From positions 1 through 64,000 of the forward strand of contig JAOAPI010000106.1 of NCBI GenBank assembly GCA_025462865.1: a DNA stretch of 64,000 nt, written 5' to 3'. How positions within the stretch are numbered: the first letter of the stretch is position 1; the number at the start of each line of letters is the position of its first letter. The position numbers and the translations under genes were made by a program. Below are positions 10,816 to 36,034 of this stretch, one piece after another. The DNA is from Candidatus Sulfotelmatobacter sp. GTDB lineage: Bacteria > Acidobacteriota > Terriglobia > Terriglobales > Acidobacteriaceae. The notes beneath the pieces are model-generated. The model was not told where the DNA came from, did no database searches, and worked only from the letters and a program-made list of their open reading frames with translations.

Positions 10816-10846
10816 ATTCAAAACGGGATTCGAAGAAGGGATATTC

Positions 10847-12882: not shown

Positions 12883-12991
12883 TCGGTTCTCCTTCGGGTG
12901 CTGTAACGAATGGGAAGTGTGAACTTTACTCCTGTTTTGTTCACCCCACAAGTATTCGCGATCGTGCGACTGTAAGACGCTGCTATCGCTC

Positions 12992-17970: not shown

Positions 17971-17998
17971 GGTTAGGGATGTGGAGTTGGAGTTTTTT

Positions 17999-18892: not shown

Positions 18893-18995
18893 GGATCGAA
18901 CCTCCGAGGAAGGCAACTATAGCAGAAACCTGCTCTGGATTGGCTCGCACGAAGCTCATCGAATGAGTATTCGAGGCACTTGAAGTTTGTCCTCG

Positions 18996-20238: not shown

Positions 20239-23200
20239 ATGTTGAAAAAGAGGGCGCTGGTCGTCGTTTTCTGTTCGTTCGCGTTTTCGGTCTGTCCGCT
20301 CCTGTACGGTCAGGCGACCGGGAGTCTTTCAGGTACCGTTTCCGACAAAGCGGGAGCGGTCGTCTCCGGAGCCACCGTGGTGGCCACGTCTCGCGACACG
20401 GGCGCAACGCGCGAAGGCAAGACTGACGACTCTGGCCATTACCTGATTCCTCTGTTGCCCGTCTCCTACTACACAATTCGCGTGGAGGCCCCGGGCTTCC
20501 GGACGACAGAGCAGAAGGACATTCGCCTGCAAGTTGACGAACACCGCGAAGTGGATTTCGCACTCAATCCCGCTTCGGTGTCGACTTCGGTGGAGGTTAA
20601 CGCGACCGAAGTGGCGGTGGAGACGTCAAATTCGACCCTTGGCCAAGTCATCACTTCAGAGCAGGTTGCCGAATTGCCCTTGAACGGGCGCGACTTCGTT
20701 CAGTTGGCCACGCTCACGCCTGGCACCACACAGGAAACGAATCCAGGGAGCTTCTTTACATCCGGAGCGAGCAGCGAAGTTGCGGCCCGCGGAATTTATT
20801 CACTTTCGGTGGGCGGATCGCGCGCCCAGAGCACCGACTGGCTGCTCGACGGCGTCGACAACAATGAACTCACTGCTGGAGGCATTTCGATTCTACCTTC
20901 GATCGACGCCATCCAGGAATTCAAAGTTCTGACCTACAACTACGCGGCCGAGTGGGGCACTCGAGCAGGCCCAACCGTGTTGGTGACGACCAAATCAGGT
21001 ACGAACAACTTTCACGGATCAGTTTTTGAATTTTTCCGAAACACAAAGCTGGATGCCCGCAGCTACTTTGCATCGGCCAGGGAGCAGTTCAATCTGAATC
21101 AATTCGGCGCGGCTTTCGGCGGACCGATTCGGAAAGACAAGACGTTCTTCTTTGTCGACTACCAAGCGAAAATGCAGCGGCATGGCATACCTTTTAGCGG
21201 GCTAGTGCCAACACCGGCGATGCTAACCGGGGACTACAGTCTTGATCCGTTGGGCGTCGCCCGGCCTGGCGTATTCGACTTCGTTAACAAGCCAACCAAC
21301 GCGGACGGTTTCGGCGACATTAACAGCCCGTATACTTTCGGGGCCTTTCAATGCGACGGCGCGGGAAATCCCTTACCCGCAGGTGCTGGCGGCGTTCAGC
21401 CTACGGGTGTGAACTGCAACAAGATTCCCTCGAATATGTTCGATCCGACTGTCAATCCGTCGGTCGACCCATCCGGTTTGGCGATGATGAAGCTTTACCC
21501 GCAGCCGAATATTGTTAACACCAACACAGTGACCAACTTTTCGAATGTCCCGGTGAGAAGACTGAACGAAGGCGAGTTCGATGTGAAGCTCGATCACACT
21601 TTCTCGAGCAAGGATTCTGCCTTCGCTCGGTTCAGTTACGACCAGGCAACTTCATTTGTACCGGGCGGCTCCCCCGGATTTGCGGAAGCAAACGCTTTTG
21701 GAAGCAGCCAGAACATTACCAATCACGGGCGCAACGTGGCGATCTCGGAGACTCACATTTTCTCCGATCGCAATCTCAATCAATTCACCGCGGGCTTTAA
21801 CCGGATTTTCAATCACATCCTCTCGTTCGGGAACGGCAGCTGCGAAGCCGCCAACATCGGGATACTGGGCGCGGATCTGAACAGCAAATGTCCCAACGCC
21901 CCTGGCGGTATCGCAAATCAATCTACAAAAGACTGCATAAGCTGCGGGTTAAGTTCCACACTGATGAACAACTACTGGGCTCTGGGTGACCGGGGGTTTG
22001 CACCATTCCAGGGTGGCACCAACGTTTTCTCGATTTCCGATTCTTTTGACATGATTCGCGGCAAGCACCACATCCGCACCGGCGCTGGATTCCGCGACCA
22101 GCAGATGAATGTTGAAACCAGTGCCTTCCAAGATGGCTTCTTTATTAACTTCGGTCTTACAGGAGATGCTACGGCTGATCTGTTGCTTGGCCAACTGGGC
22201 GGAGGAATTCACGATCAGACGTTTTTCGGAGCTACGACGGGCCGTCGCTGGAAATTGTTCCGTCCTTTTGTTGATGACGAATGGCGCGTGACCCCTGATC
22301 TGACCTTGACCTTGGGCCTCGCATGGGCGCTCGTGACACCGATCACCGAAGCCCAAAATCGTCAGGCGAACTTCGATTTTGCCAGCGGTAAGTTCTTTGT
22401 CGCTGGGTCGGTGCCCTTCGGCAGTTGTACGATCTGCGTTCGATCGGACGGGCGCGTTGGCATTCAGATGGACAAGACCGCTCTCGAACCTCGGATCGGA
22501 CTGGCTTGGAAGCCATTTGGCTCACAGAAAACAGCAGTGCGCGCCGGTTATGCAATTTTCCATGATTCTTCCTGGAATCAGGGTGCGCAGGGATTGTGGG
22601 AGAATCCGCCGTACTTTGCCGAGTCTGATAACTTCTTCGGACCTTGTCCATTTAACAATTCAGGACAAGCTGTGCCGGCGAATTGCGGCAATCGATATCT
22701 TTTCCTTGACTCCACTTTAAATCCCATTACATCGCCTCCGAGCCCACAGTCTTTTCCAGGCGCCCTTCAATCTCAAAACCTCAATTACAAACAGGGCCGC
22801 GTGCAGCAGTTCAACCTGAATATCGAGCGTCAATTGCCCGGTAATATCGTGCTGACGGCTGGTTATGCGGGCTCGCGAAGCTCTCACATTCTGGTGGACG
22901 GTTTGAACCTGAACGTTGGGTCGCCCAGCGCTTGCGATCCGGCAAACCCGGACTTTAATCCGAATTACCACCTAGGCTGCGCCCCCGGCGGGGGCCCCTT
23001 CGCACCTAAATGGGGTGCACCCACGTTTCCGTTCAACTTGACGATAAACAATAACAACGACGTTGGCAGGGCTCACTACGATTCGTTGCAGGTCAAAGCT
23101 GAAACCAAGAGCACGCGCCACGGACTTTACGCGCTTCTGGGTTACACCTATTCGCGCACATTCGATTCAGGGTTTGCGGACGGGTTGGGAACCTTTCCTG

Positions 23201-23901
23201 GAGCCACATACTTCCCGTTGCCAGGCACACAGAGCAAAGATTGGGCGCTTTCGGCGCTCAACCTAAATCACCAGTTTACGGCCAGCGTTCTTTATGATTT
23301 GCCGTTCGGTAAGGGCAAAACGTATGGAAGTTCCTGGAACGGTCCGGTCAACGCAGTTCTCGGAGGCTGGACGCTTAACTTGATCGAAAAGATTACTTCA
23401 GGATTTCCTTTGTTTGTAGTTGATAGCGCCAACGGGGGCACACCCGGAGATCCAGGCGTTTCGGGGGTAGCCTTCTCCTGGAATGGAAACGGATTAAACC
23501 GCCCGGATCAGGTCGGTGATCCCAACAAAGCGGGACCAGTAGCTGCCAACCCGAGCTGCCAAGCACCCTCTCGGGTGCACACACTTACGAATTGGTTCAA
23601 TCCCTGCGCGTATACTCACGCGGCAGCCGGAGAGCTAGGAAACTCAGATCGTGCGCCGCTGTACGGACCACGTTTTGTGAACACCGATCTCTCCATCGTC
23701 AAGCATTTCCCGCTTCCCTACGAGACTGTAAGGCTGGACTTCCGTGCTGAGTTCTTCAATATCTTTAACCATGCTCAGTTCTACTTGCCGGGCGGGAGCA
23801 GCGGCATGCAGGATGTAAACGCTGCCAGCAGTTTCGGGGTCATAAGCGGAACGGTGAACAACCCGCGTGTTGTCCAACTCGCCCTTAAGCTTAACTTTTA
23901 G
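20239..23901 (+). CDS. Oar-type TonB-dependent outer-membrane receptor
   Basis: 1220-residue outer-membrane transporter. A Sec signal peptide (cleavage near LLYGQA) is followed by a carboxypeptidase-regulatory-like domain (GSLSGTVSDKAGAVVSGATV, residues ~28-115), a plug (EQVAELPLNGRDFVQL, LLDGVDNNE) and a large beta barrel. It ends in LALKLNF with the terminal Phe expected for BAM-dependent insertion. GGGGA precedes the start. No SusD-like lipoprotein accompanies it, typical of acidobacterial Oar receptors. It is followed by a hairpin and then a run of exported nucleoside-hydrolase-family genes, with ribokinase upstream, so nucleosides, oligonucleotides or a ribosylated compound are candidate ligands. 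The ligand is inference, since Oar-like receptors are numerous and unspecific by sequence. Confidence 0.92.
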   Translation: MLKKRALVVVFCSFAFSVCPLLYGQATGSLSGTVSDKAGAVVSGATVVATSRDTGATREGKTDDSGHYLIPLLPVSYYTIRVEAPGFRTTEQKDIRLQVDEHREVDFALNPASVSTSVEVNATEVAVETSNSTLGQVITSEQVAELPLNGRDFVQLATLTPGTTQETNPGSFFTSGASSEVAARGIYSLSVGGSRAQSTDWLLDGVDNNELTAGGISILPSIDAIQEFKVLTYNYAAEWGTRAGPTVLVTTKSGTNNFHGSVFEFFRNTKLDARSYFASAREQFNLNQFGAAFGGPIRKDKTFFFVDYQAKMQRHGIPFSGLVPTPAMLTGDYSLDPLGVARPGVFDFVNKPTNADGFGDINSPYTFGAFQCDGAGNPLPAGAGGVQPTGVNCNKIPSNMFDPTVNPSVDPSGLAMMKLYPQPNIVNTNTVTNFSNVPVRRLNEGEFDVKLDHTFSSKDSAFARFSYDQATSFVPGGSPGFAEANAFGSSQNITNHGRNVAISETHIFSDRNLNQFTAGFNRIFNHILSFGNGSCEAANIGILGADLNSKCPNAPGGIANQSTKDCISCGLSSTLMNNYWALGDRGFAPFQGGTNVFSISDSFDMIRGKHHIRTGAGFRDQQMNVETSAFQDGFFINFGLTGDATADLLLGQLGGGIHDQTFFGATTGRRWKLFRPFVDDEWRVTPDLTLTLGLAWALVTPITEAQNRQANFDFASGKFFVAGSVPFGSCTICVRSDGRVGIQMDKTALEPRIGLAWKPFGSQKTAVRAGYAIFHDSSWNQGAQGLWENPPYFAESDNFFGPCPFNNSGQAVPANCGNRYLFLDSTLNPITSPPSPQSFPGALQSQNLNYKQGRVQQFNLNIERQLPGNIVLTAGYAGSRSSHILVDGLNLNVGSPSACDPANPDFNPNYHLGCAPGGGPFAPKWGAPTFPFNLTINNNNDVGRAHYDSLQVKAETKSTRHGLYALLGYTYSRTFDSGFADGLGTFPGATYFPLPGTQSKDWALSALNLNHQFTASVLYDLPFGKGKTYGSSWNGPVNAVLGGWTLNLIEKITSGFPLFVVDSANGGTPGDPGVSGVAFSWNGNGLNRPDQVGDPNKAGPVAANPSCQAPSRVHTLTNWFNPCAYTHAAAGELGNSDRAPLYGPRFVNTDLSIVKHFPLPYETVRLDFRAEFFNIFNHAQFYLPGGSSGMQDVNAASSFGVISGTVNNPRVVQLALKLNF

Positions 23902-23987: not shown

Positions 23988-25091
23988 ATGGCGCAGTGCG
24001 GAGGGAAAGTCGCATACGTCTCTGTTGTCGCGCTCCTGCTTTGTTCCGCCGCGGTTGCCCAGAAAATCAAAGTCATCGTCGACCAGGATGCGCGCGGTCC
24101 CGGCACCAGCGATCAGCAGGCTATCCTTGTATTCCTTCAGTCAGAGAGGTTTGACGTGCTCGGCATCACGACGGTCAGCGGGGACCAGTGGGCGAAAGAA
24201 GAGACACAGCATGTGCTGCGTCTGCTGGAGATTGCTGACCGGACTGACGTCCCGGTGATTCAGGGCGCGGAGTTTCCCCTGCTCAACTCGAAGGAAGAAG
24301 GCGAGCGATGGGAAGCGCTTTACGGAAAGCTGGAATACAAGGGCTGCTGGACCGAGAGATTCGAGGCGAACCGATCCACAATTTACGATGAGCCTTATCA
24401 CGCGCCCGACGTTGTTCCTCCGATGCGGGAAGGTGAGCCGCACATTCACGCGCAGCCCGGCACGGCCGCCGAATTTATTGTGCAGATGGTGCACAAATAT
24501 CCTGGAGAAGTAGTTCTCTGGGCAGGCGGACCGCTGACGAATTATGCTCTCGCGCTGAAGCTGGATCCATCCGTAGCAACGCTGGCAAAAGAATTCGTTC
24601 TGATGGGTGGCGGACTCTACGCCGACAAGGGAGCGATCGACACGGGCGCGATTGATGCGCGCCGCGAATTCAACTGGTGGTTCGATCCGGAGGCGGCTCG
24701 CATTGTGCTGCGTGCGCCGTGGAAAAAACTAACCATTACGCCGATTGATATCTCGGTGAAGACGCGCTTTACGACGGAGATGAAGGCGACTATCGCTAAA
24801 GCTGGCACGCCCGTTACTCAATATCTGGATAAATATTCGTTGCCTGGATATATGTGGGACGAGATCGCAGGCGCGGCCATGCTTGACCCGTCCATAATCA
24901 CGGGGCAGAAGCAGCTCTACATGGACATCGACGTCGATCACGGAGCCAGCTATGGGAAAACGATCTTCTGGAGTTCAACCACGAAAGTCCCTCCGTACCT
25001 GCGGCTGGCCGACGTGCAGTTCGACATCGACGCGGAAAAGTTCTACAAGCTCTACATTGATCTGATGACGCGGCCCCCGCGCAAGCGGTGA
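23988..25091 (+). CDS. Exported divergent nucleoside-hydrolase-like protein, type A (copy 1)
   Basis: Nucleoside hydrolase fold, ~367 residues, with a Sec signal peptide (VAYVSVVALLLCSAAVAQ). GGAGG at 23979-23983 favours the ATG at 23988 over the TTG just before it. Canonical motifs are altered together. DxDPGxDDA is replaced by VDQDARGPGTSDQQAIL, AGN by TTVSGDQWAKEE, and HGxxGLG is lost in favour of YGKLEYKGCW. The ribose-contact Glu and Asn persist in RREFNWWFDPEAAR, and the late metal Asp in MWDEIAGAA, with Trp where His is usual. A family-specific tail (EKFYKLYIDLM) follows. It is the closest paralogue of the gene at 28690. A riboside or related N-glycoside is likely bound; reaction and substrate are unproven. 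Confidence 0.85.
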   Translation: MAQCGGKVAYVSVVALLLCSAAVAQKIKVIVDQDARGPGTSDQQAILVFLQSERFDVLGITTVSGDQWAKEETQHVLRLLEIADRTDVPVIQGAEFPLLNSKEEGERWEALYGKLEYKGCWTERFEANRSTIYDEPYHAPDVVPPMREGEPHIHAQPGTAAEFIVQMVHKYPGEVVLWAGGPLTNYALALKLDPSVATLAKEFVLMGGGLYADKGAIDTGAIDARREFNWWFDPEAARIVLRAPWKKLTITPIDISVKTRFTTEMKATIAKAGTPVTQYLDKYSLPGYMWDEIAGAAMLDPSIITGQKQLYMDIDVDHGASYGKTIFWSSTTKVPPYLRLADVQFDIDAEKFYKLYIDLMTRPPRKR

Positions 25092-25140
25092 AACTCTTCG
25101 GGCGCGCGAAATCAATTACCAGCACTCTGAAAGGTTCACG

Positions 25141-26223
25141 ATGAAACGTAGCGGAGCCTGCGTGGTTATAACAATGCTGTTTGCGGTCAGTTCCTTCACA
25201 TGGGCGCAGCAGCAGCGGCGCAAAGTCATCATCAATGAAGATTGCTCGGGTCCCGGCGGCAGCAATTTGCAAACGCTTCTGATGATGATTCAATCTCCGC
25301 AGGTCGAAGTGCTTGGGATCACTGTGGTCAGCGGCGACCAATGGCGCGACGAAGAAGTCGCTCACACACTGCGCCTGCTTGAGATTATCGGCCGCACCGA
25401 TATTCCCGTAATTCCCGGAGCTGTCTTTCCGTTAGTGCGGCGCCGCGACGAATCCCAACTGTGGCAAGAGCGCTACGGCAAAGTTGCTTATGCGGGAGCG
25501 TGGGACGACCGCTGGTGGCACGAGCCCTTCGTCGTTCCGGCGCTCCCGGAGGGCAAGCCGACCACCAAGGCCGCCGATGAAGATGCAGCTCATTTCCTAA
25601 TTCGCATGGTGCATAAGTATCCGCACGAAGTGACTATCTACGAGGGCGGACCCATGACCAATCTTGCATTGGCAATCTCAATCGATCCGCGGTTCGCTGA
25701 ACTGGCGCAGGAGTTGGTCTTCATGGGCGGTAGCTTGAGTCCGCATACGGACAATCCCGAGTTTGTGAACACTCCACGGCACGAGTTTAATTTCTGGTTC
25801 GATCCCGAAGCGGCGCAGATCGTCTTGCGTTCGCCATGGAAGAAAATTGTCTGCACTCCGACGGATATTTCAATCAAGACTCACATGACTCCCGCGCTCG
25901 TTAAGCAGATCGAAGCGAGTGGTACTTCCGCGGCTCGTTATATTGCGCGCTTTGCCATGTTCACGCCGGGAGCGGACATAATGTGGGATGAGATTGCGGC
26001 TGCCGCATGGATCGATCCGAGCCTGATTACGAAGCGGGAGACTCGTTTCATGGAAGTCGACCTTGACCGCGGAGCAGGATACGGAAACACACTAACCTGG
26101 ACGGAGAAAGATAAGCCTAAGTTGGCTTTGCAGGCGGTCGAAATCCAGCTGGACCTGGATTTGGAAAGATTTTATAAGATGTTCGTCACGTTGATGAGTG
26201 CCGCGAGTCCTGCCGTACGTTGA
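25141..26223 (+). CDS. Exported divergent nucleoside-hydrolase-like protein, type B (copy 1)
   Basis: 360 residues with a Sec signal peptide (VVITMLFAVSSFTWAQ). This is the most eroded family member: the N-terminal metal motif reads INEDCSGPGGSNLQTL, so one Asp remains and the Asp-Asp pair is gone. VVSGDQWRDEE replaces the AGN loop and YGKVAYAGAW the HGxxGLG loop. It keeps HEFNFWFDPEAAQ and MWDEIAAAAW. A signature GKPTTKAADEDAAHFL links it to the gene at 31084, its pair. It lies 50 bp after the type A gene and probably shares its transcript. It could be catalytically weak or a binding protein. Confidence 0.83.
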   Translation: MKRSGACVVITMLFAVSSFTWAQQQRRKVIINEDCSGPGGSNLQTLLMMIQSPQVEVLGITVVSGDQWRDEEVAHTLRLLEIIGRTDIPVIPGAVFPLVRRRDESQLWQERYGKVAYAGAWDDRWWHEPFVVPALPEGKPTTKAADEDAAHFLIRMVHKYPHEVTIYEGGPMTNLALAISIDPRFAELAQELVFMGGSLSPHTDNPEFVNTPRHEFNFWFDPEAAQIVLRSPWKKIVCTPTDISIKTHMTPALVKQIEASGTSAARYIARFAMFTPGADIMWDEIAAAAWIDPSLITKRETRFMEVDLDRGAGYGNTLTWTEKDKPKLALQAVEIQLDLDLERFYKMFVTLMSAASPAVR

Positions 26224-26235
26224 ACCTGTCAAACC

Positions 26236-27903
26236 TTACTGGGGCCTTGAGTGGAGCGACGGTTCCCCCAACTTGTAAACAAATTGCTGCACTTCATGCC
26301 GTTGGCGTTCGATCTCTGCCGCTTTTTCTTTTGATATTTGTTCGTAGAGTTTCAGTTCTGCCTGCGCCTTCAAAGCTTCCCCCGTCTGGCGGTAGGCTTG
26401 TGCGAGTCGATAGTGCGCCTCTTCCTCTCCGGAAGTGGCCGCGATCGCGCGTTGATAGGCAGTAATGGCGTGCGGAAAATCTTTTTGCTCCGCATAGAGA
26501 ATTCCGAGTTGTAAATAACCGAGCCCGAGATCGGGATCAAGGTGGACAGCTTTTTCCAGCAACGATTTTATTTGCGCAGAATTCTGATTGTCCTCCGGCA
26601 ATTTATGCCGCTTCCAAAGACTGACGGCGTAATAGTAATTTGCAAGCGCGTTTTCGGGTTGGAGCCTCACAAATCGCTCGAGTCTTTCGTGAATGGCCTC
26701 AGACGAAGTAGTATCGGCGGCTTGCATTTTTCCCATGAGCAGATAGGGATTCAGATCGTTAGGATTTAGATCCGACGCCTCGCAGAGAAGCTTCGCCGCC
26801 TGATCGTTATAGCCGATGGCATACCACGACGCACCGAGGCCCGCCAGCATTCGCGCCGAGCGCGGGAACAGGCGATTGCCTTTCTGGAAAACTTCCCTGG
26901 CAGGTTCCGCAGCGTGGTGTAGCAGCAGTTCGGCTCCCCAATCGAACAGATACGGTTCGCTCGGATTCAGCTCCGCCGCAAGCTGATATTCTTTTACAGC
27001 TTGCAGAGGGTCATTCAGTTTCTCGCAGATCTCGCCGAGCAAATGATGCGGCTCCACTTTGTCGTGGCCAGGCTTGTCCGTCTTCAGTAAGGAGCTGAGA
27101 CTGGCGCGCGCCTGTTCGTAATCCCCGGTATCAGCGTGCGCCAGCGCCAACTCATAAGTGTTGCCATAATCGCTGGGATTCACTTGCGAAGCCCGTTCCA
27201 GGTAGACGAGCGCCTCCCGCGCTTTGCCCTCCGCGACAAGAACTTTTCCCAGTTGATGATTGGCGTCAAAATCCGCAGGGCGGTTTTCAGCAGCATCGCG
27301 CAGAAGTTTTTCAGTCGCGGAGTTGGATGAGCTGAGTGCAGAAGGCTCCGCCGGCTCCTTGCTCAACGATGCCGTGGCTTTTGCGACGGCATCCCGATTT
27401 CTGACAATCGTATCTGAGCCATGGCCGCCTAGATTCGTCGTGTCAGTCACTCCAGCAACGGTAAAGTGGGGTTCGTCGAAGAACTGGGGGGCTTGCGCGA
27501 AAGAACTCGGCGGCTCGGATGTTTCTGCTGCTTCGAGAATGAGATCTATGGTCTTGGATTCGTTTCGAGCCAGAGTAAAAGCTGCGGTAGAGACGTCACG
27601 ATATCCCACCATTTCGGCGCGTAGAGTGTAGTCCCCTTGCCTCACCGCCCGAAAGCGATAAGCTCCAGCAGAATCGGTGCGCAAAGTAAGAGTTCCCGCA
27701 TCTTTAGCTTGGAGGCAAACTGTGACTCCCGCAACGGGGTGACCACCGGAATCTCTTATGATCCCCTGCAGTGTTGATTCCACCGCAGGTTGCGATTTTG
27801 TCTGAGCGGATTGCCCTTGCAACACCGATGGCCCAGTCAACGACAACCAGACCACAATCCAGAGTGCAAGGCGAGAATGGTTTGCGCAGAGAAGGCGGCA
27901 CAT
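26236..27903 (-). CDS. Exported carboxypeptidase-regulatory/TPR protein
   Basis: About 555 residues. A signal peptide (LALWIVVWLSLTGPSVLQG) is followed by a CarboxypepD-regulatory-like domain (STLQGIIRDSGGHPVAGVTV to LILEAAE), a low-complexity stretch and then TPR repeats from ~residue 190 to the end (for example DFDANHQLGKVLVAEGKARE, AHYRLAQAYRQTGEALKAQ). I used the ATG at 27903 because it puts the signal peptide at the N-terminus; a longer frame starts at 27981. It probably acts as a periplasmic or outer-membrane scaffold. The same regulatory domain heads the TonB receptor. It lies antisense inside the nucleoside hydrolase array and is convergent with the type B gene. No enzymatic function can be given. 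Confidence 0.82.
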   Translation of the reverse strand: MCRLLCANHSRLALWIVVWLSLTGPSVLQGQSAQTKSQPAVESTLQGIIRDSGGHPVAGVTVCLQAKDAGTLTLRTDSAGAYRFRAVRQGDYTLRAEMVGYRDVSTAAFTLARNESKTIDLILEAAETSEPPSSFAQAPQFFDEPHFTVAGVTDTTNLGGHGSDTIVRNRDAVAKATASLSKEPAEPSALSSSNSATEKLLRDAAENRPADFDANHQLGKVLVAEGKAREALVYLERASQVNPSDYGNTYELALAHADTGDYEQARASLSSLLKTDKPGHDKVEPHHLLGEICEKLNDPLQAVKEYQLAAELNPSEPYLFDWGAELLLHHAAEPAREVFQKGNRLFPRSARMLAGLGASWYAIGYNDQAAKLLCEASDLNPNDLNPYLLMGKMQAADTTSSEAIHERLERFVRLQPENALANYYYAVSLWKRHKLPEDNQNSAQIKSLLEKAVHLDPDLGLGYLQLGILYAEQKDFPHAITAYQRAIAATSGEEEAHYRLAQAYRQTGEALKAQAELKLYEQISKEKAAEIERQRHEVQQFVYKLGEPSLHSRPQ

Positions 27904-28003
27904 AAAGCGAACGTCAGCAAGATAAAACGCCAGTGATGTTCTTTGGCTCGCAATTTTAACCGTTCGAACCGTACCAGGCAATCGTGCCGGGGTCTGCGGT
28001 TCG

Positions 28004-28540
28004 TCAGATTCCGGTTGATACCACGTCTTTCTGATGCGCCAAAAGGTCGACGTATGCTTCCGCTACGATTTGTTGCTTGTCAACGCCAAAGTCGATGAGA
28101 AGTGCGGCGGCTATGCTTTTTCCTTCTGCTTCGCTCTGCGCAGGCTGGAGGACAACCTCGAGTTCCAGAAAGTCGCCAAGTCCCTCCACCTGGTCGAGGT
28201 GTACACGAGTCTGCCCGATAAGGTAGAGCGTCCGCATCTTCCTCACCACACCGGCTGTGCCGAGCGTCGCCCTGAGAATGTCGAGCAGGATTTTAGGATC
28301 GGCAGTGCGCGCGATCAAGTAGGTCGAGCGACGAGCATCGGCGATATCGACTCTTTCATACCGAATCAATTCGCCGTGATCCGCCGCGAGGATACGCAGC
28401 TTCAGCCGTGCTCCAGCACAGTTGAAAAAGAAATCCTCTTGCCGGAATGTTTTCGGGCCTGCATTGCTAAGGCGGGCGGCCACCGCTTCCGCCGCTGGTC
28501 TATTCCGCAAAATGGCTTTGATTTCAATATTCGATGGCAT
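28004..28540 (-). CDS. CYTH-domain protein, class IV adenylate cyclase-like
   Basis: Tunnel-fold triphosphate enzyme family, about 178 residues. It starts MPSNIEIKA, the CYTH ExExK motif in its NIEIKA variant, and continues with QEDFFFNC, ARLKLRI, LIRYERVD, KMRTLYLIGQTRVHLDQVEGLGDFLELEV and a C-terminal YVDLL. The conserved charged residues lining the tunnel are largely present. Family members include CyaB adenylate cyclases, thiamine triphosphatases and inorganic triphosphatases; sequence alone does not decide between them. I took the ATG at 28540, as the upstream 44 residues of the open frame look non-coding. It lies between two copies of the duplicated nucleoside hydrolase genes and may have come along passively. 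Confidence 0.78.
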   Translation of the reverse strand: MPSNIEIKAILRNRPAAEAVAARLSNAGPKTFRQEDFFFNCAGARLKLRILAADHGELIRYERVDIADARRSTYLIARTADPKILLDILRATLGTAGVVRKMRTLYLIGQTRVHLDQVEGLGDFLELEVVLQPAQSEAEGKSIAAALLIDFGVDKQQIVAEAYVDLLAHQKDVVSTGI

Positions 28541-28689
28541 GATGAATTTTGGGCCACCCTTAGCCTTAAGACTGACTGCCCGATGGAAGAAGAATACAAT
28601 GGAATGCCTTCTGAGCTGAGCCGGTCGGAAATCCCGGTTGGTTTCGGCGAATCGCAAGGCATCATCACACATCCTGGGGATTAGTCACC

Positions 28690-29796
28690 ATGAGGCGACA
28701 AGGCATTCTCGCACTGCTGACCGCTTTTCTTTCTCTAACGTTGGTGCCTGCACTCCGAGCACAGAAGAAGAAAGTCATTGTCGATCAGGATGCTCGTGGT
28801 CCCGCTACCACTGACATGCAATCGATCCTGATTTTTCTGCAGTCGGACAAATTCGACGTTCTGGGCATTACTACCGTGAGCGGCGATCAGTGGGTGAAAG
28901 AGGAAACGCAGCGCACCTTACGCCTGCTGGAAATCGCGGGCCGCACTGACGTTCCCGTTGCCCAGGGAGCAGAATTTCCCTTGCTGAACTCGAAAGAAGA
29001 AAGCGAGCGATGGGAAGCCTCGTATGGCAAGCTCCGTTACAAGGGATGCTGGAGCGATTTCTCGAAAGCTCCGGCAGGCACGTCGCCAGCATCCCGGGCC
29101 CCGTATCACGAGCCTGACGTGGTTCCTCCGCTTGTCGAGGGAGAGCCCCATACCAAACCGCTCGAAGAAACGGCCGCTCATTTCATCGTCCGCACCGTCC
29201 ATCAATATCCCGGCGAAGTGATTCTGTGGGCTGGCGGACCTTTGACAAATATTGCGCTCGCGCTGCGTCTCGATCCTGAAGTGGCGACCCTTGCCAAAGA
29301 ACTCGTGCTGATGGGCAGCGGAATGTACGCCAATAACGGCGGGATCACTGGCATCGACGGCCGCAGGGAATTCAACTGGTGGTTCGATCCAGAAGCGGTG
29401 CGCATGGTGATGCGCGCGCCCTGGAAGAAAATTACCATCACGCCGATCGACATTTCTGTAAAAACCCAGGTGACGCCGGAGATCAAAGCCGCCATCGCCA
29501 AGGCGGACACGCCCGTCGCCCGTTATTTAACACGATATTCCGTGCCCAGTTTCATGTGGGATGAGCTCTCCGCCGCGGCCATGGTCGATCCTTCGATCAT
29601 CACTGGTCAAAAAGAACTTTATGTAGATATCGACATCGACCACGGACCCAGCTATGGCGAAACACTTTTCTGGCAGCCCGGCACTTCTCTTCCTTCTTAC
29701 GAGAGGCCAGCCACCGTGCAGTTCGATGTGGACACTCACAAACTTTACGAACTCTATGTAAAGTTGATGACGCAGCCCCCGCGAAATGCTCACTAA
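28690..29796 (+). CDS. Exported divergent nucleoside-hydrolase-like protein, type A (copy 2)
   Basis: 368 residues with a Sec signal peptide (ILALLTAFLSLTLVPALRAQ). It is a close paralogue of the gene at 23988, sharing VIVDQDARGP, LGITTVSGDQWVKEETQ, KLRYKGCW, REFNWWFDPEA, PWKKITITPIDISVKT and a MWDE metal motif (SFMWDELSAAAMV). The N-terminal motif continues ATTDMQSIL, so the second acidic residue is followed by Met rather than Asp. A region after KGCW is enlarged (APAGTSPASRAP) relative to copy 1. It is followed by 33 bp and the Tat-exported hydrolase; the two genes likely form one transcript with the type B gene after them. Confidence 0.85.
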   Translation: MRRQGILALLTAFLSLTLVPALRAQKKKVIVDQDARGPATTDMQSILIFLQSDKFDVLGITTVSGDQWVKEETQRTLRLLEIAGRTDVPVAQGAEFPLLNSKEESERWEASYGKLRYKGCWSDFSKAPAGTSPASRAPYHEPDVVPPLVEGEPHTKPLEETAAHFIVRTVHQYPGEVILWAGGPLTNIALALRLDPEVATLAKELVLMGSGMYANNGGITGIDGRREFNWWFDPEAVRMVMRAPWKKITITPIDISVKTQVTPEIKAAIAKADTPVARYLTRYSVPSFMWDELSAAAMVDPSIITGQKELYVDIDIDHGPSYGETLFWQPGTSLPSYERPATVQFDVDTHKLYELYVKLMTQPPRNAH

Positions 29797-29829
29797 CAAT
29801 TCCTTGGTCATACTTGGAGGTTCTTATCC

Positions 29830-31011
29830 ATGAATTCAGAGCATCGCGGTTCCATAACGCGCCGTCAGTTTGTGACTTCCTCGGCCACGGTTTTAGCGGC
29901 CAGTAGTTTGGCGCGCAATGCGCAGGCTACTACAAACTTTTTCGCGCAACACGAGGCGGCCCGCCGCGGCCCGTTCCGAGTAATCATCGACACGGATCCT
30001 GGGGTTGACGACGCATTGGCATTGCTGCTAGCCATGCGGTCCCCGGAGTTGAAGATTGAAGCCATCACTCCGGTGGCGGGAAATGTGCCTCTGGAATTGA
30101 CCCTTCCCAACGCTTTGCGCATGGTCGAGATCGCCGGCCGTACAGACATTCCCGTCGCGGCCGGCGCGAGAGCTCCTTTGGTGCGTCGCCTGGTGACAGC
30201 CGCGTACGCGCACGGAGAGAACGGGCTGGGCGGGGCTGTTTTTCCTGAACCGAAAACCAAACCGGCTAAAGAGCCCGCTGCGGAATTGATTCGCCAGATC
30301 GTCAGGAAATTTCCCGGCGAAGTCACGCTTTTAACGATCGGGCCGCTGACCAATATTGCAACTGCTTTGAGCACTGATCCCGAACTTGCCGGCATGGTTA
30401 GAGCGCTGGTGATGATGGGGGGCTCTCTGTCTGGAGGAAATATTACGCCGGCAGCAGAGTTCAATATCTATGTTGATCCGGAAGCCGCGCGAGTCGTGTT
30501 TCAATCGGGAATTCCGATCACTATGGTAGGTCTCGACGTGACGCGCAAAACGTCTCTCACAGAGGAACATCTACGCCAACTGCAGGGCGCGCAGAACCCG
30601 GTTAGTCAGGCGGCGGCGACCATCGCACGTAACGCCATCGAGCATAATCGCGAACGCGGGTTTATCGTGGGCCCCAACATGCATGACTCCCTCGCCGTGG
30701 CTGGATTCATAGACCCTTCGCTCCTGAAATTGAAGGAATATTACGTCGACGTCGAAACTACTGGGGAGCTCACGGCCGGCGAGACTTTGGGTTACAGCCC
30801 GAATGCCGGTGACTTGCGGCGGCGTCCGGAAATGGCGAAGGACCCGGCTGCAACGAACATGTCTATTCGTGGTTCGGCGCCGACTCTGGCCAGCACTCGA
30901 ACATCCCCGGTTGTTCGCGATAGATTCGTTCCCAACGCCAACGTAGCCGTGGATGTTGATTCCATAAGATTTTTCGATCTGCTCATCAGCCGATTGTCGG
31001 GAAAGCTGTGA
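29830..31011 (+). CDS. Tat-exported canonical nucleoside hydrolase (type C)
   Basis: 393 residues. A twin-arginine signal (SITRRQFVTSSATVLAASSLA) suggests export in folded form. All canonical motifs are present: VIIDTDPGVDDALALLLA, PVAGNVPLE, AHGENGLGG, AEFNIYVDPEAAR and MHDSLAVAG with the His-Asp pair. The protein carries an extra ~45 residues (about 325-370, DLRRRPEMAKDPAATN to TSPVVRDRF) before the final VAVDVDSIRFFDLL strand, not expected in the family. TTGGAGG precedes the ATG. It lies inside the array of divergent paralogues and is probably the one fully competent purine/pyrimidine nucleosidase there. Confidence 0.92.
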   Translation: MNSEHRGSITRRQFVTSSATVLAASSLARNAQATTNFFAQHEAARRGPFRVIIDTDPGVDDALALLLAMRSPELKIEAITPVAGNVPLELTLPNALRMVEIAGRTDIPVAAGARAPLVRRLVTAAYAHGENGLGGAVFPEPKTKPAKEPAAELIRQIVRKFPGEVTLLTIGPLTNIATALSTDPELAGMVRALVMMGGSLSGGNITPAAEFNIYVDPEAARVVFQSGIPITMVGLDVTRKTSLTEEHLRQLQGAQNPVSQAAATIARNAIEHNRERGFIVGPNMHDSLAVAGFIDPSLLKLKEYYVDVETTGELTAGETLGYSPNAGDLRRRPEMAKDPAATNMSIRGSAPTLASTRTSPVVRDRFVPNANVAVDVDSIRFFDLLISRLSGKL

Positions 31012-31083
31012 GTATACTCGTGAGCTGTGTGTGAGCAACTACCAACCATCTTTTAAGACTTCTAAACTTCTTTGAGGATAACG

Positions 31084-32163
31084 ATGAAACCAGGCCGCCT
31101 TAGTTTGTTCATAGCAGCGCTTCTACTAATCAGCTTCACGTCCTGGGGCCAGGAAAAGCGAAAGATAATTATCGATCAGGACGCTGCTGGCCCGGCCGGG
31201 ACTGATCAACAATCGATGCTGTTGCTTATCCAGTCGCCGCAAACGGACATTCTTGGCATCACCGTTGTGACAGGCGATCAATGGCTTCACGCCGAAGTGG
31301 CGCACACTTTGCGGATGCTCGAACTCATCGGGCGAACCGACATTCCAGTCGTACCGGGAGCCGAGTATCCGCTGGTAAGGCGTCAGCAGGAGACGGAGCA
31401 ATGGGAACAGCGGTACGGCTCGGTGGCATGGCTGGGCGCGTGGACGCCTCGCCTCTATCACCCGCCAGATCAGTTAGGAGAGATGCCAGAAGGAAAGCCC
31501 ACGACCAAGGCGGCCGACGAAGACGCGGCGCATTTTCTGCTGCGCATGGTTCATAAGTTTCCCAATCAGATCACGATTTATGCGGGCGGTCCGATGACCA
31601 ACCTGGCGCTTGCCATTTCGATTGATCCGGAATTCGCGCGGCTAGCCAAAGAGTTGGTGTTCATGGGCGCGAGCTTTAATCCGCGAACCGACGATCCTGA
31701 ATTCGTGAATGCTCCAACCCACGAATTCAATATCTGGTTCGATCCGGAAGCCGCTCACGTTGTTTTTCAGGCGCCATGGAAGAAAATTGTTTGCACGCCA
31801 GTCGATATCTCAGTAAAGACCAGGCTCACAGCCAATTTGGTGAACCAGATTAAGGCGGGCAGCTCGTCCGCGGCGCAGTATATCGGCAAATATGCGCGCC
31901 TGCGCGGCAACTACAATTATCTGTGGGACGAACTCGCTGCAGCCGCGTGGCTCGATCCCGGCATCATTACGAAAAAAGAGACGCTGTTCATGGATGTGGA
32001 CCTCGACCGCGGCGCCGGTTACGGCAACACACTAAGCTGGGCCGAACACGATAAGCCCAGAATCGACTTGCAGCCGGTCGAGGTGCAGGATGATCTGGAC
32101 CTTGATAGATTTTATAAACTTTTTGTGGATTTGCTGACCGCGCCCACTCCTAAGAAAAATTAG
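31084..32163 (+). CDS. Exported divergent nucleoside-hydrolase-like protein, type B (copy 2)
   Basis: About 359 residues with a Sec signal peptide (LSLFIAALLLISFTSWGQ). The ATG at 31084 is supported by GAGG at 31074-31077; a TTG four codons upstream is the alternative. It pairs with the gene at 25141 through VVTGDQWLHAEVAHTLRMLE, GRTDIPVVPGAEYPLVRR, GKPTTKAADEDAAHFL, PWKKIVCTPVDISVKT and DVDLDRGAGYGNTL. Unlike copy 1 it keeps acidic residues in the N-terminal motif (IIDQDAAGPAGTDQQSML). HEFNIWFDPEAA and LWDELAAAAW are intact. It ends the array and is convergent, by 19 bp, with the ASPIC/TPR gene. Confidence 0.85.
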   Translation: MKPGRLSLFIAALLLISFTSWGQEKRKIIIDQDAAGPAGTDQQSMLLLIQSPQTDILGITVVTGDQWLHAEVAHTLRMLELIGRTDIPVVPGAEYPLVRRQQETEQWEQRYGSVAWLGAWTPRLYHPPDQLGEMPEGKPTTKAADEDAAHFLLRMVHKFPNQITIYAGGPMTNLALAISIDPEFARLAKELVFMGASFNPRTDDPEFVNAPTHEFNIWFDPEAAHVVFQAPWKKIVCTPVDISVKTRLTANLVNQIKAGSSSAAQYIGKYARLRGNYNYLWDELAAAAWLDPGIITKKETLFMDVDLDRGAGYGNTLSWAEHDKPRIDLQPVEVQDDLDLDRFYKLFVDLLTAPTPKKN

Positions 32164-32182: not shown

Positions 32183-35100
32183 TTATTGCTGAAGTTCTGC
32201 GAGCATGCTCTGCGCCTGCGGGTGCTGTGGATGCTGCTTTAGAAGGTCGAACAAAACCGCCCGGGCTTTTTCCGTTTCGCGCTCGAGACGATAGACTCTG
32301 GCGAGATTCAGATAAGCCTGATCGAAGGCAGGCGCAACGCGGATGCACTCTTCGAAACTTGCCACCGCTTCATCACGCCGCTGGGTACGCAAGTAGAGTA
32401 TTCCGAGATTGTTCAAAGCTTCTGGGTAATCCGGTCGCGATTTCAAAGCCCTCTGCAGGTATTCGTAGGCGCGCGCGGCGTCGTCACCTTGCGCGAAGAC
32501 CATTGCTAACCCATAGTTTGCATCGGCATCGGCCGGATTGACTACGAGGGCTCGCTCAAACGCCTTACGAGCCTCCCGCCAATTTTTCTGTAAGCGGTAT
32601 GCATTGCCGAGATTGTTGAGGGCGATCAAATGATCGGGGTTGAGATGCACAGCTTCGTTAAAGCACCGTATCGCTTCGTCTGTCCGCCCTTCCTGCGTCG
32701 CCAGAAGTCCCAGGTTGTTCCATGCGTTCGCGAGCGTGTCCGGATAGCTGGCACGCAGCTTGGTGGCCTGTTCAAAAGTTGCGCGCGCCTCTGCCCTTTT
32801 CTGGAGATTGAGATAAGCGCTACCAAGGCCGTAGCAAGCTTCGGCACTCGATGGATCGTCGCGCAGGGCAAGTTGAAACGACGATGCAGCTTGGTCGAAG
32901 TAGCCGTGCTGAAAAAAGACCGAGCCGTAGGAAAGATAGTTGCGGCCGACCTCGAATGTTTCAGTGATGCCTGGAAACGGCAACGCTCGCGCTAGTCTTT
33001 CGGCATCGCTGTGGGGAATGTTCCGAAAATCTCGCTCGACGTGGTCGGGATCCACCGGACCTTGATAGAGCTTGACGATTTCTCCGTTGGCATCAATCAG
33101 GAATGATGTCGGCAGAGCCAGATCGCGATGCCGGTCGAAGAGGTGGCGATAAAGAATGTTGTAAATGCCAGCGACATCATCCGACCCGCGACAAATTGGA
33201 AAGGAAAGCCGCTGTTGCTGCGCGAAGGCACTTAGGCCTTGGCCATCGGCATGATCGTCCACGTTCATCGTGAGCAGCTGAAGGCCTTGCGTCTTCCAGC
33301 GCTCATGAAGTCTGCCGAACAGCTTTAATTCATCACGACAGTTCGCGGATTGCATCACCCAGAAATTGAGTAGCACCGGCTTTCCGCGAAACGCGGTCAG
33401 AGTCTGTACTCTGCCCGTTAAATCAGGGAGAGAAAACTCAGGCGCCGCTGTGGGCGCGAGCAGCCAGGTTTCAATTGTGGCGGGGAGTCGTTCGGTCCCT
33501 TGAATCGCAGGCGGAACATTGTAATTGTCTGAGGTCTGAACCCTGAAGGGCTCCGCGCGAAACTTGTCCGAGCCTTCCTCCACCGAGATTCTGTGGCCGG
33601 CTGGCAGGTCGGGCAGACTCTGGATAACCCCGCTTGGCCAGCGGATCGACGCCCGCACGGTATTTTTCGCTGATCCCAAGCCGAACAATACTTCCTTGCT
33701 GTGCTGAGAAAGGAATCCTGATCCGGCCTGAAGCATGCGACTCTGACCGCCCGATTCCGTTTCCACGGTAATCGTTGCGCCAATGGCGTCCCGATTACTC
33801 TTGGTGCCGCGCAAGCAGAACGAAATCGACGGCGGCAAGTCCTTCATTACATTCTTTAGCAGTCGCAACTGTGGAGCGTTGCGGTTTTTTAAGAACACTT
33901 CCTGGCGGCCATCCCGGTCGAAGTCAGCGAGTGAAAAGGCACGCCCATCCTCGAGAAAATCCATTCCTACCGCCCCGGAGACATCGGAGAACGTTCCATC
34001 ACGATTGTTGGCATAGAACACGTTGCGCTCGAAGCCGCTCCATGTTCCATCTGCACGAATCAGTTCGTTGATGGCGCTCCATCCCTGTTCGTAGTCATGC
34101 GCTAGCTTTGCCTGATCGGGTGAATTAGCGACTACTTGCCGCCAGAAAAAACTATTCAAGTCTTGCCGCGAAGCCCCAGACACCATCCCGTTTGCAATGT
34201 AGAGGTCTGGGAAACCGTCATGGTCGAAATCAAACGTGTCGCTAGACCATGACCAGCGGCCCATTCCGACTCCAGCAGACCCTGTCTTATCTTGAAACCT
34301 TCCGTCGCGGCTTTGACCATCAGCATTCCGCAACAAGGAATTGCCGATTGCATGCTTGCGATAAAGGGAGCGAACTTCTTTCGGCGAATCTTTCTTGAAA
34401 ATCTCTTGCGAGGAGATACGTTCACCCGCAGCAGTCCACATGTTGGCGACATACAAATCCTCAGCGCCGTCAGCGTCGTAATCGAGCCAGCAAACGCTCA
34501 TGCCGGCTCCTACATCCTCAACGCCCGCCTGTTGAGCAACGTCGGTAAAGGTTCCATTGCCGTTGTTGTGGTAGAGATTCTTGCGTCCGAAATCATTTAC
34601 CACGTAGAGATCAGGCCAACCATCGCGGTTATAGTCGCTCCACCCGCAACAGAAACTGTACCGCGTGTTGTTCTGGCTGAGACCCGACTCAGTGGTCACG
34701 TCGTGGAAAGTTCCGTCACGATCGTTGCGCATCAAAAAGTTAGGCGGACCATTTTGCGCGTCATGATAGGGGACGGGATACTTGTACTGATCCGCTCCCT
34801 GGTAATAAACGTAGAGACAGAAATAAATGTCGAGAAAACCGTCGCGGTCATAGTCGGCAATGGCAGCACCCGTGAATGTTCCCTGCGGAGGGTTGGCGAA
34901 CCGAAAAGCGCCTGGCTTCTGGCGAAACTTTCCGTCGCCTTCGTTAACGAACAAGAGAGGACCGTTCGCTCGCACCACGACGACATCCTGGTGTCCGCGA
35001 TTGCTGAAGTCGGCAAACAGGGCACACGCAGTGTTGTCGAGAATTCCCAAGCCCGAGGCTTCCGTAATGTCTTCGAACGTTCCGTCTCTTCGATTTCGAT

Positions 35101-36034
35101 AGAGCCGATTGGGAAGGCCGGCAGGCTGGCAAACGTACAGATCGTCGAAGCCATCGTTGTCGATGTCGGCGACTGAAACTCCGTTGTGCCCGTAGATATC
35201 GATGCCGCATGCACCGTCCAGAACTGTTCGCCAATAGTCGACACCGCGCAACATTTGCGCTGAATAAGAAGAATTTCCGCCAAGCGCAGAGGCGGCGATG
35301 TCAACAAAGATCGGAGATGCCGAACGGCTTCGCGTCTCGTCGAGAGACTGCCATCTTCGGACGTGAAACTCACTAGGAATGGAAGAGGAAGAAACCCATT
35401 CGAGATCCCAATATCCGACGCGCTGTTCGCGATGGAAATCGGAGCCGGAACCGACCAGTTCGTAACGCACGCAAGTCTGCAGCCTCAGCGGCTCTTGAGC
35501 GGCAGACTCCGTACGTGTCTCAATGCTCGTGACTTGGAATTCCGCGATAACGATCTTTGAAAAAACGCTCAGGGAAGAGCGGAAGTCGCGAAGAAAGGCA
35601 TTCTGCCCGAGGTGCGGCTGAGTGGTGAATTTATTTTGATGAACCCGGAGCGCGGAGTCGGAACGCACGAGTCGCGAGTCAAGTGGTTCTATGGACGATC
35701 CCAGAAAATCTGGGGCGAGCGATTTTTCCACCGCTCGCGATTCCTGCGAAGAGCGAAGCAGGCTCTCACTCCAGTCCCGCAGAACAACTGCGATTTGGTC
35801 GTGGTATTTTTCGGTGACAAAATCGTCCAAGCCAGACTTAGTTTTGAGAAGTGTGGCGTCGAGCGGTCTCTGGGAGCGATAGCGGGGTCGGAGGTAGAAG
35901 TCCCCCCCTGAGAGTTGTGCAGAAGAATCCGAAGAGAAGTTAGAAGGAAAGGCGATGCCGCGCAGGCTTACGGGGACTAGCGCTGCAGCTCCCTGGCAGC
36001 AGCGCACTAGAAATTCGCGACGGCCGGGGCTCAC
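32183..36034 (-). CDS. Tat-exported FG-GAP / ASPIC-UnbV / redoxin / TPR protein
   Basis: 1283 residues. A twin-arginine signal (PGRREFLVRCCQGAAALVP) opens the protein, with a GTG start. Residues ~290-760 carry FG-GAP/VCBS propeller repeats with calcium-type loops (DIDNDGFDDLYV, DYDRDGFLDIYF, DFDRDGRQEVFL). An ASPIC/UnbV segment (SIRWPSGVIQSLPDLPAG) is near residue 800. A thioredoxin-like/AhpC domain lies at ~880-1010 (GKPVLLNFWVMQSANC, with a single Cys instead of CxxC), and TPR repeats run from ~1025 to the end (AWNNLGLLATQEGRTDEA, NNLGNAYRLQKNWREA). Combinations of ASPIC and TPR are common in Acidobacteriota, but the roles are unknown. It may be an envelope protein-interaction hub. It is convergent with the nucleoside hydrolase array, so a functional link is not implied. 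Confidence 0.88.
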   Translation of the reverse strand: MSPGRREFLVRCCQGAAALVPVSLRGIAFPSNFSSDSSAQLSGGDFYLRPRYRSQRPLDATLLKTKSGLDDFVTEKYHDQIAVVLRDWSESLLRSSQESRAVEKSLAPDFLGSSIEPLDSRLVRSDSALRVHQNKFTTQPHLGQNAFLRDFRSSLSVFSKIVIAEFQVTSIETRTESAAQEPLRLQTCVRYELVGSGSDFHREQRVGYWDLEWVSSSSIPSEFHVRRWQSLDETRSRSASPIFVDIAASALGGNSSYSAQMLRGVDYWRTVLDGACGIDIYGHNGVSVADIDNDGFDDLYVCQPAGLPNRLYRNRRDGTFEDITEASGLGILDNTACALFADFSNRGHQDVVVVRANGPLLFVNEGDGKFRQKPGAFRFANPPQGTFTGAAIADYDRDGFLDIYFCLYVYYQGADQYKYPVPYHDAQNGPPNFLMRNDRDGTFHDVTTESGLSQNNTRYSFCCGWSDYNRDGWPDLYVVNDFGRKNLYHNNGNGTFTDVAQQAGVEDVGAGMSVCWLDYDADGAEDLYVANMWTAAGERISSQEIFKKDSPKEVRSLYRKHAIGNSLLRNADGQSRDGRFQDKTGSAGVGMGRWSWSSDTFDFDHDGFPDLYIANGMVSGASRQDLNSFFWRQVVANSPDQAKLAHDYEQGWSAINELIRADGTWSGFERNVFYANNRDGTFSDVSGAVGMDFLEDGRAFSLADFDRDGRQEVFLKNRNAPQLRLLKNVMKDLPPSISFCLRGTKSNRDAIGATITVETESGGQSRMLQAGSGFLSQHSKEVLFGLGSAKNTVRASIRWPSGVIQSLPDLPAGHRISVEEGSDKFRAEPFRVQTSDNYNVPPAIQGTERLPATIETWLLAPTAAPEFSLPDLTGRVQTLTAFRGKPVLLNFWVMQSANCRDELKLFGRLHERWKTQGLQLLTMNVDDHADGQGLSAFAQQQRLSFPICRGSDDVAGIYNILYRHLFDRHRDLALPTSFLIDANGEIVKLYQGPVDPDHVERDFRNIPHSDAERLARALPFPGITETFEVGRNYLSYGSVFFQHGYFDQAASSFQLALRDDPSSAEACYGLGSAYLNLQKRAEARATFEQATKLRASYPDTLANAWNNLGLLATQEGRTDEAIRCFNEAVHLNPDHLIALNNLGNAYRLQKNWREARKAFERALVVNPADADANYGLAMVFAQGDDAARAYEYLQRALKSRPDYPEALNNLGILYLRTQRRDEAVASFEECIRVAPAFDQAYLNLARVYRLERETEKARAVLFDLLKQHPQHPQAQSMLAELQQ

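Follow-up and report, generated by a model that had tools for sequence, protein, structure and literature searches.

Nucleoside hydrolases (NHs) are diagnosed in the literature by the fingerprint DxDxxxDD, which is reported to contact the 2′-hydroxyl group of the ribose (PMC10526354). In RihA, Ca2+ is held by Asp10, Asp15, Asp241 and the carbonyl oxygen of Thr124, while Asp10 and Asn166 contact the water and Asn158 and Glu164 the 5′-hydroxyl group (PMC2898832). In group I enzymes a His preceding the last Ca2+-binding Asp helps to activate the base, and the relay seen in simulations has the third fingerprint Asp as one of its members; group II and IG-NH enzymes carry a Trp at the His position, and this Trp stacks on the purine (PMC8910321). 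Here we describe an array of five PF01156 genes, in the order A1-B1-[TPR, CYTH]-A2-C-B2, at 23988–32163 of a 64,000-nucleotide window (positions 1–64,000 of contig JAOAPI010000106.1, assembly GCA_025462865.1) of the soil bacterium Candidatus Sulfotelmatobacter sp. C is a canonical NH, whereas A1, A2, B1 and B2 form, by sequence, a variant subfamily within the NH superfamily, since they lie inside the superfamily, fail the group I/II fingerprint and share the Trp of group II. It is rather probable, judging from the residues and the gene context, that these four are exported N-ribosidases of an acidobacterial nucleoside-scavenging locus.

Residue numbers are those that we take to apply to CfNH, in which Asp14 is presumably the 2′-hydroxyl contact. 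The variants and the group I NHs (PF01156; RihA, RihB, RihC, CfNH) have in common the fold, the Ca2+ ligands (in three of the four variants of the window), the Glu and Asn of the E-F-N motif and the DPEA segment, whereas Asp14, Asn39, the Asn at the 5′-hydroxyl and both catalytic His positions differ, and the fingerprint loop, the E-F-N loop and the crossover are longer. With the group II IAG-NH and the hybrid IG-NH of trypanosomes they share the Trp directly before the last Ca2+-binding Asp and a longer crossover; the purine-specific enzymes, however, are described as having DxDxxxDD (PMC10526354) and conserved Ca2+ ligands (PMC8910321), and the variants are exported bacterial proteins. Further marks of group II are two extra helices in the crossover and a stable dimer. 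In the XopQ/HopQ1 effectors, too, insertions and a changed aspartate motif occur in an NH fold, but their motif, DXXXDXDD, keeps both last Asp residues, whereas the variants of the window carry Ser or Thr at the first of the last pair and a Sec-type signal peptide. Exported relatives with the motif DTDFxxPPxDD, the next group out on the tree, have a fingerprint loop of equal length but keep Asp14, Asp15 and Asn39 and have Tyr before the last Asp. At the level of the locus, there is a likeness to the rus locus of Bacteroides thetaiotaomicron, in which Glowacki et al. in 2020 reportedly found a TonB-type outer-membrane receptor of the SusC/D kind, exported NHs and a ribokinase together; our window also holds a receptor, exported NHs and a ribokinase, and differs by its Oar-type receptor and its variant NH array. 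A literature search mostly limited to open-licence papers found no description of the variant subfamily; PF01156 already covers its sequences.

Active-site residues of the variant subfamily

Related proteins were collected from 76 loci, which were fetched by two sequence patterns (EFN[WIF]WFD and T[TV]V[ST]GDQW) and come from the best 80 of at least 532 confirmed stretches in a scan of genome contigs. Together with the window they gave an alignment of 193 proteins after removal of 15 short domain matches and identical copies. The 144 proteins with Ser or Thr at D14 were taken as members. An alternative set of 144, picked by the Trp before the last Asp together with a (D/N)x(W/F) motif, differs by one protein each way, and 143 of its proteins have Ser or Thr at D14.

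By this alignment the metal site is generally retained, and what has changed is the shell around the ribose and the base. The equivalents of D10, T126, N168 and D242 are found in 144/144 members and that of E166 in 143/144, while position D15 is occupied by Asp in 92, Asn in 51 (including B1) and Ala in one. All four protein Ca2+ ligands (D10, D15, D242 and the T126 carbonyl) of A1, A2 and B2 align with those of the canonical enzymes; B1 has Asn at D15, as is the case in 36 of the 37 B1-group proteins. The residue preceding D242 is Trp in 143 members and Tyr in one, which is the group II feature and not the His of group I, and N39 is replaced by Asp in 130 members and kept as Asn in 14. For comparison, among the 49 non-member proteins D14 is Asp in 47, D15 is Asp in 47 and N39 is Asn in 48.

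The surroundings of the ribose differ in a similar manner. The Asn at the 5′-hydroxyl, six residues ahead of E166, is present in 48/49 non-members versus 0/144 members; an Asn one place closer to the Glu occurs in 72/144 members and may stand in for it. The loop ahead of E-F-N most commonly has 18 residues in members versus 12 in the others, and the crossover has a median of 46 residues versus 28. The fingerprint loop of A1, A2, B1 and B2 is longer by three residues and its third Asp is Ser or Thr, so that DxDxxxDD is absent from all four and present in C; the same extension is also seen in seven of the 49 non-members, with both Asp residues retained, and in the protein of locus L139, with Asp14 retained. 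In the β3–α3 stretch, where group II enzymes have a second Trp that stacks on the base, W108 (128/144) and W121 (141/144) stand by alignment.

The conservation of N39 and E-F-N is partly built in, because the fetch patterns overlap both. The members include, however, 21 proteins with neither pattern and 25 from profile searches. In the former, D10, T126, N168, D242 and the Trp (Trp290 in A1) are invariant, E166 is kept in 20/21 and N39 is Asp in 20/21; in the latter, N39 is Asp in 17/25.

A preliminary description of the window, made from its letters alone, had proposed a shared non-canonical motif set, and this set turns out to be common to the 144 proteins of the window and the related loci. 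Its statement that DxDPGxDDA is replaced by a DQQ-type motif needs narrowing, as only Asp14 is lost: Asp15 is kept in A1, A2 and B2 (in "TSDQQ") and is Asn in B1 only. The altered metal chemistry that it suggested is not borne out for A1, A2 and B2, whose four ligands align, and is possible for B1 and its D15N relatives. Altered contacts to ribose and base, on the other hand, agree with the alignment (D14 to Ser/Thr, N39 to Asp, the 5′-hydroxyl Asn displaced and His241 to Trp). Loss of the metal site, the plain reading of DQQ, was considered separately and was rejected for A1, A2 and B2 on the strength of alignment with the solved enzymes and of the models of A1 and B1.

Predicted structures

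AlphaFold2 models of A1 and B1 were built from a 53-row alignment, with mean predicted local distance difference test (pLDDT) values of 90.8 and 94.1, respectively. The best structural match of the A1 model is 4kpn (Z 36.7, 2.2 Å over 293 residues; VIA-align), and that of the B1 model is 3b9x (Z 37.8, 2.1 Å over 289 residues). For both models, all 50 listed entries are solved NHs with Z of 31–38, trypanosomal IAG-NHs among them at 31–34, and the superposition spans almost the entire mature length. The structural-alignment identity of A1 with trypanosomal IAG-NH/IG-NH is 16–23%. Profile score and predicted fold both place the variants in the PF01156 superfamily. Helix 1 begins at residue 41 in the A1 and B1 models, consistent with residues 41 and 42 occupying the positions of Asp14 and Asp15. 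In A1, lower confidence is seen in the block 211–220 in the loop ahead of E-F-N (mean pLDDT 55) and in part of the crossover (pLDDT 61–68).

Phylogeny and distribution

A tree was calculated from 99 of the 193 proteins, near-duplicates and short proteins being left out. The proteins with Ser or Thr at residue 41, including A1, A2, B1 and B2, form one starred clade (70 rows, support 99/88), in keeping with the distinct exported subfamily proposed in the preliminary description. Outward from it stand the long-branched L139 and then L113 and L134 (73 rows, 99/95), followed by the exported DTDFxxPPxDD proteins of L031, L035, L131, L133 and L143 (78 rows, 100/99); E. coli RihA, RihB and RihC lie on the far side of the tree with C and the two other canonical NHs of the window. 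Within the clade, a starred trio unites A1 and A2 with L031_7920, and B1 and B2 lie in neighbouring clades joined at 92/94 (unstarred). On the tree, a single change accounts for the loss of Asp14, whereas residue 42 (Asp15) changes six times. L113 and L134 have the Trp before the last Asp yet canonical D14, D15 and N39, and look like intermediate forms linking ordinary NHs to the variant clade.

The subfamily is common yet patchy in Acidobacteriota. Hosts of the 76 loci are labelled Acidobacteriota in 75 cases and Nevskia soli in one. At E ≤ 1e-50, matches are found in 25/25 genomes of the genus (our own included), 0/14 of the rest of the order and 1/2 of the class; class-wide, 53/250 genomes match at E ≤ 1e-100, and phylum-wide 20/297 at 1e-40, sister lineages such as L131 and L133 counted in.

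Two features of individual genes were noticed in passing. Two A-type NH domains are fused in an open reading frame of about 770 residues at L035:6657-8966 and L037:7716-10025, and further 770-residue fusion frames occur at G475:C240 and G377:C222, perhaps in the same genomes as L035 and L037. One stop lies inside some subfamily matches (G013:C27:306673-307743, G537:C18:180720-181790, G447:C13:7011-8093, G548:C2:1123585-1124670 and others), which might be ends of neighbouring frames or real breaks.

Paralogy within the array

All five array proteins score far over the PF01156 cut-off of 34.2 bits (Table 1), and their translations match the coordinates. By inspection, the N-termini of A1, B1, A2 and B2 are Sec-type signal peptides and that of C is of the twin-arginine type (TRRQFV). 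Five nucleoside-hydrolase-family genes with export signals had been announced in this order, and coordinates, strands and profile scores agree. The two close pairs then pointed out, 23988/28690 and 25141/31084, are also real: A1 and A2 are 68% identical and B1 and B2 62%, versus 44–45% between the pairs and 32% for A1 and C. Duplication of an A-B unit, the event then suggested, is plausible on these figures, whereas one single event is not demonstrated, because the A pair is closer than the B pair and the modules are separate in other loci. The whole genome has eight PF01156 matches, seven of them inside the window (the array genes and two further canonical ones). The eighth is a B2-like gene truncated by a contig end (G000:C188:2-877), a further copy of the family outside the array. 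The RihA equivalog model gives 291.2 bits for C, below its cut-off of 433.

Selection on the array genes

The ratio of nonsynonymous to synonymous substitution rates (dN/dS) was estimated for pairs that are 70–98.5% identical with dS < 1.5; these pairs are interdependent, and their dS values run high (medians 1.27–1.33). Median dN/dS is 0.097 for B1 (37 genes), 0.103 for B2 (35), 0.070 for A1 (17), 0.085 for A2 (12) and 0.081 for C (18). The five orthologue groups, B1 included, are under purifying selection. Could the variants nevertheless be functionless paralogues, decaying and kept by chance in one genome? The broken family signature is what speaks for this. We consider it very improbable, given dN/dS near 0.1 in the B1 and B2 groups, like that of the canonical C, the same array order in other genomes such as L154, and the class-wide matches given above. 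B1 itself is not decaying, as its ratio lies near that of C.

Proposed function and mechanism

From the sequences, the clade, the conservation, the predicted fold and the neighbourhood, we infer a course for transport, metal binding, catalysis, substrate use and Trp stacking. The variants probably feed the cell on scavenged nucleosides. The Oar-type receptor would let nucleosides or small RNA-derived material into the periplasm, where C and the variant enzymes would cleave off the base; the free ribose would be imported and then phosphorylated by the adjacent ribokinase, and the bases could be taken in through NCS1, ureide or CNT permeases. Release of free ribose is argued by the ribokinases next to members, including ribokinases only distantly related to that of the window.

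The Ca2+ of A1, A2 and B2 would be coordinated by the residues that correspond to Asp34, Asp42, Asp291 and the carbonyl of Thr184 in A1, and Asp34 and Asn229 would orient the water as in ordinary enzymes. Trp290 may take the place of the general-acid His and activate the leaving base by stacking on it, the way group II enzymes specific for purines do. Once the His was lost, its relay partner Asp14 would be free to become Ser or Thr. The joint loss of His and third Asp is coherent, since the simulations put the third Asp in the His relay, and the Trp may have arisen first, freeing Asp14, because L113 and L134 have the Trp and retain D14, D15 and N39. With Asn at the Asp15 position, B1 and its relatives would bind the metal more weakly or serve as binding proteins.

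Several observations weigh against N-ribosidase activity of the variants. To our knowledge no activity is known for any subfamily member. Asp14, the 2′-hydroxyl contact, is absent from the variants, and in B1-type proteins the Asn at Asp15 takes away a carboxylate ligand of the Ca2+. The RihA, RihB, RihC and UriH models of NCBIfam give the four variants 77.9–113.5 bits, and none of their cut-offs (382–459) is reached. In related loci, the receptor is not directly upstream in 30 of 57, and a ribokinase match of at least 50% identity is present in only 18 of 76, many of the loci being short. HopQ1/XopQ, with an NH fold and an altered aspartate motif, are described as lacking nucleosidase activity on common nucleosides, and XopQ as inactive although it retains the metal site (PMC8910321).

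The last point leads to an alternative, in which the variants, or at least B1, would be dead NH folds that bind ligands, acting as periplasmic riboside or ADP-ribose partners of the Oar receptor in a SusD-like role. The altered fingerprint and the Asn at D15, which nearly all B1-group proteins carry, are consistent with it, and precedents are known, namely XopQ (ADP-ribose bound, inactive) and Sde_0182 (PMC8910321). Among genes with enough upstream DNA, D15N genes stand directly behind a receptor in 16/31 cases versus 11/63 for the others, positions within an array not being independent; moreover, B1 is the sole array-type gene matched at > 60% identity in 20/76 loci, some of which are cut by contig ends. 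On the other side, D10, N168, T126 and D242, on which the water and the metal depend, never vary among the members and A1, A2 and B2 keep all four protein Ca2+ ligands, and XopQ is described as having no leaving-group residue, whereas the Trp is kept in all but one of the members. We consider this alternative unlikely. B1 is the most uncertain of the four variants. It may be a slower enzyme, may use another ion, an archaeal NH containing Na being known (PMC8910321), or may act as a binder only.

If the variants are hydrolases, what are their substrates? Loss of the 2′- and 5′-hydroxyl contacts might point to modified or 5′-substituted ribosides, such as nucleotides, nicotinamide mononucleotide (NMN), ADP-ribose, queuosine-like or 2′-O-methylated nucleosides; modified nucleosides and ADP-ribose-like N-glycosides had also been put forward in the preliminary description. 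The clade-wide loss of Asp14, the absence of the 5′-hydroxyl Asn from every member and the longer E-F-N loop and crossover would suit such substrates. QueK is presumably a member of the NH family. The substrate of this queuosine hydrolase is a modified nucleoside, and preQ0/preQ1 are carried by a ureide permease from an acidobacterium (PMC11130926). However, the Asn one position nearer the Glu in half of the members is a possible stand-in for the lost contact, none of the array genes was assigned to a phosphatase or nucleotidase family by Pfam (the HAD-family hydrolase at 38459-39166 is not part of the array), and a ribokinase implies free ribose. We consider substituted ribosides an unlikely substrate class. 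Queuosine salvage, prompted by the ureide permease between two NH genes, is only a lead. A reading with 2′-deoxyribonucleosides as substrate could draw on the loss of Asp14 and the nearby DeoC, and is weakened by the ribokinases beside members, also distantly related ones. In a bolder combination, the variants would be a novel functional class within the NH fold: periplasmic ribosidases that rely on Trp for activation and have a ribose pocket remodelled for 2′- or 5′-substituted ribosides (2′-O-methyl nucleosides, NMN, ADP-ribose), with a D15N branch that uses a weakened or different metal or captures ribosides for the Oar receptor; we consider this unlikely.

The subfamily is of interest as a large clade under purifying selection in which the third fingerprint Asp was lost once and a Ca2+ ligand was swapped in branches, while the rest of the core and the nucleoside-scavenging context were kept. 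Since the signature is partly lost and the core kept, it can be tested which of the signature residues are required for catalysis. Whether Trp stacking dispenses with the His-Asp relay, and how soil Acidobacteriota feed on extracellular nucleosides, can be tested as well.

Genomic neighbourhood

The window contains a nucleoside and pyrimidine catabolic island, to which PyrR also belongs, followed by the Oar-type receptor and the array (Table 1). Curated NCBIfam cut-offs are passed by PyrR, NupC, ribokinase, NCS1 permease, dihydropyrimidinase and cytidine deaminase. In the genome itself, PF25183 gives 65 match pieces in 6.08 Mb, some of which are pieces of one gene.

Table 1. Features of the array and its surroundings in the window
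Feature	Position	Strand	Evidence and remarks
DeoC	6592-7626	-	Pfam/NCBIfam
Cytidine deaminase	7763-8236	+	Pfam/NCBIfam
Pyrimidine-nucleoside phosphorylase	8233-9588	+	Pfam/NCBIfam
NupC-type transporter	9589-10815	+	Pfam/NCBIfam
Canonical NH, signal-like N-terminus	10796-11899	+	Pfam/NCBIfam
Ureide/sugar permease, between two NH genes	11905-12951	-	Pfam: ureide permease 79.8 bits, sugar transport 40.5 bits
Canonical NH, no visible export signal	13007-13972	+	Pfam/NCBIfam
Dihydropyrimidinase	14001-15398	-	Pfam/NCBIfam
NCS1 permease	16534-18099	-	Pfam/NCBIfam
Nitrilase/carbamoyl-amidase-like protein	17999-18916	-	Best NCBIfam model 257.3 bits, cut-off 410.25 not passed
Ribokinase (RbsK), upstream of receptor and array	19054-19989	+	TIGR02152 332.1 bits, cut-off 299.65
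Oar-type TonB-dependent outer-membrane receptor, carboxypeptidase-regulatory-like N-terminal domain	20239-23901	+	PF25183 640.9 bits, PF13620 78.7 bits
A1, exported NH-like protein	23988-25091	+	PF01156 186.8 bits; DQDARGPGTSD / SGDQW / WDE
B1, exported NH-like protein	25141-26223	+	PF01156 193.9 bits; NEDCSGPGGSN, Asn at Ca2+ ligand Asp15
TPR protein with carboxypeptidase-regulatory-like domain	26236-27981	-	PF13620, TPR families
CYTH-domain protein	28004-28672	-	PF01928 54.6 bits
A2, exported paralogue of A1	28690-29796	+	PF01156 186.5 bits
C, canonical NH	29830-31011	+	PF01156 325.6 bits; DTDPGVDDA, AGN, HGENGLG, HD
B2, exported paralogue of B1	31084-32163	+	PF01156 199.2 bits; Asp at Ca2+ ligand Asp15 kept
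FG-GAP / ASPIC-UnbV / AhpC-TSA / TPR protein, downstream of array	32183-36034	-	Pfam

Gene orders in the 76 loci were read from matches of > 60% identity, many loci being cut by contig ends. A1-B1-A2-C-B2 is seen in four loci, A1-B1-A2-C in two, A1-B1-C-B2 in three, A2-C-B2 in five and A1-B1 in four, besides B1 alone (20), other part-orders (22) and no such match (16). In L154, from another genus of the family and a genome rated 100% complete, PynP and CNT adjoin the order Oar-A1-B1-TPR-A2-C-B2. Of the 57 loci in which the upstream flank of the first subfamily gene measures at least 1500 bp, 27 have a tblastn match to the receptor of the window that ends no more than 300 bp ahead of that gene. 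Among the 35 loci of at least 16 kb, another nucleoside or ribose gene (at least 50% identity) is found in 26, an Oar-type gene in 25 and a ribokinase in 14, counts that have no background from random places. In L156 and L158, ribokinases that share 37% and 39% identity with that of the window adjoin a member, and both exceed the cut-off; L154 has a third, non-adjacent one that, at 292.1 bits, lies just below 299.65.

With matches of at least 50% identity, the TPR neighbour is recurrent (20/76 loci), as is the FG-GAP/ASPIC-UnbV/AhpC-TSA/TPR neighbour (30/76), whereas the CYTH neighbour (4/76) is not constant. The ureide/sugar permease, which might transport bases or ribose, has such matches in 13/76. 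Further downstream, at about 39000–61500, lies a cluster of polysaccharide or capsule genes (sugar transferases, GDP-mannose dehydratase, a SIS domain and a Wzi-like protein) that is unrelated to the array.

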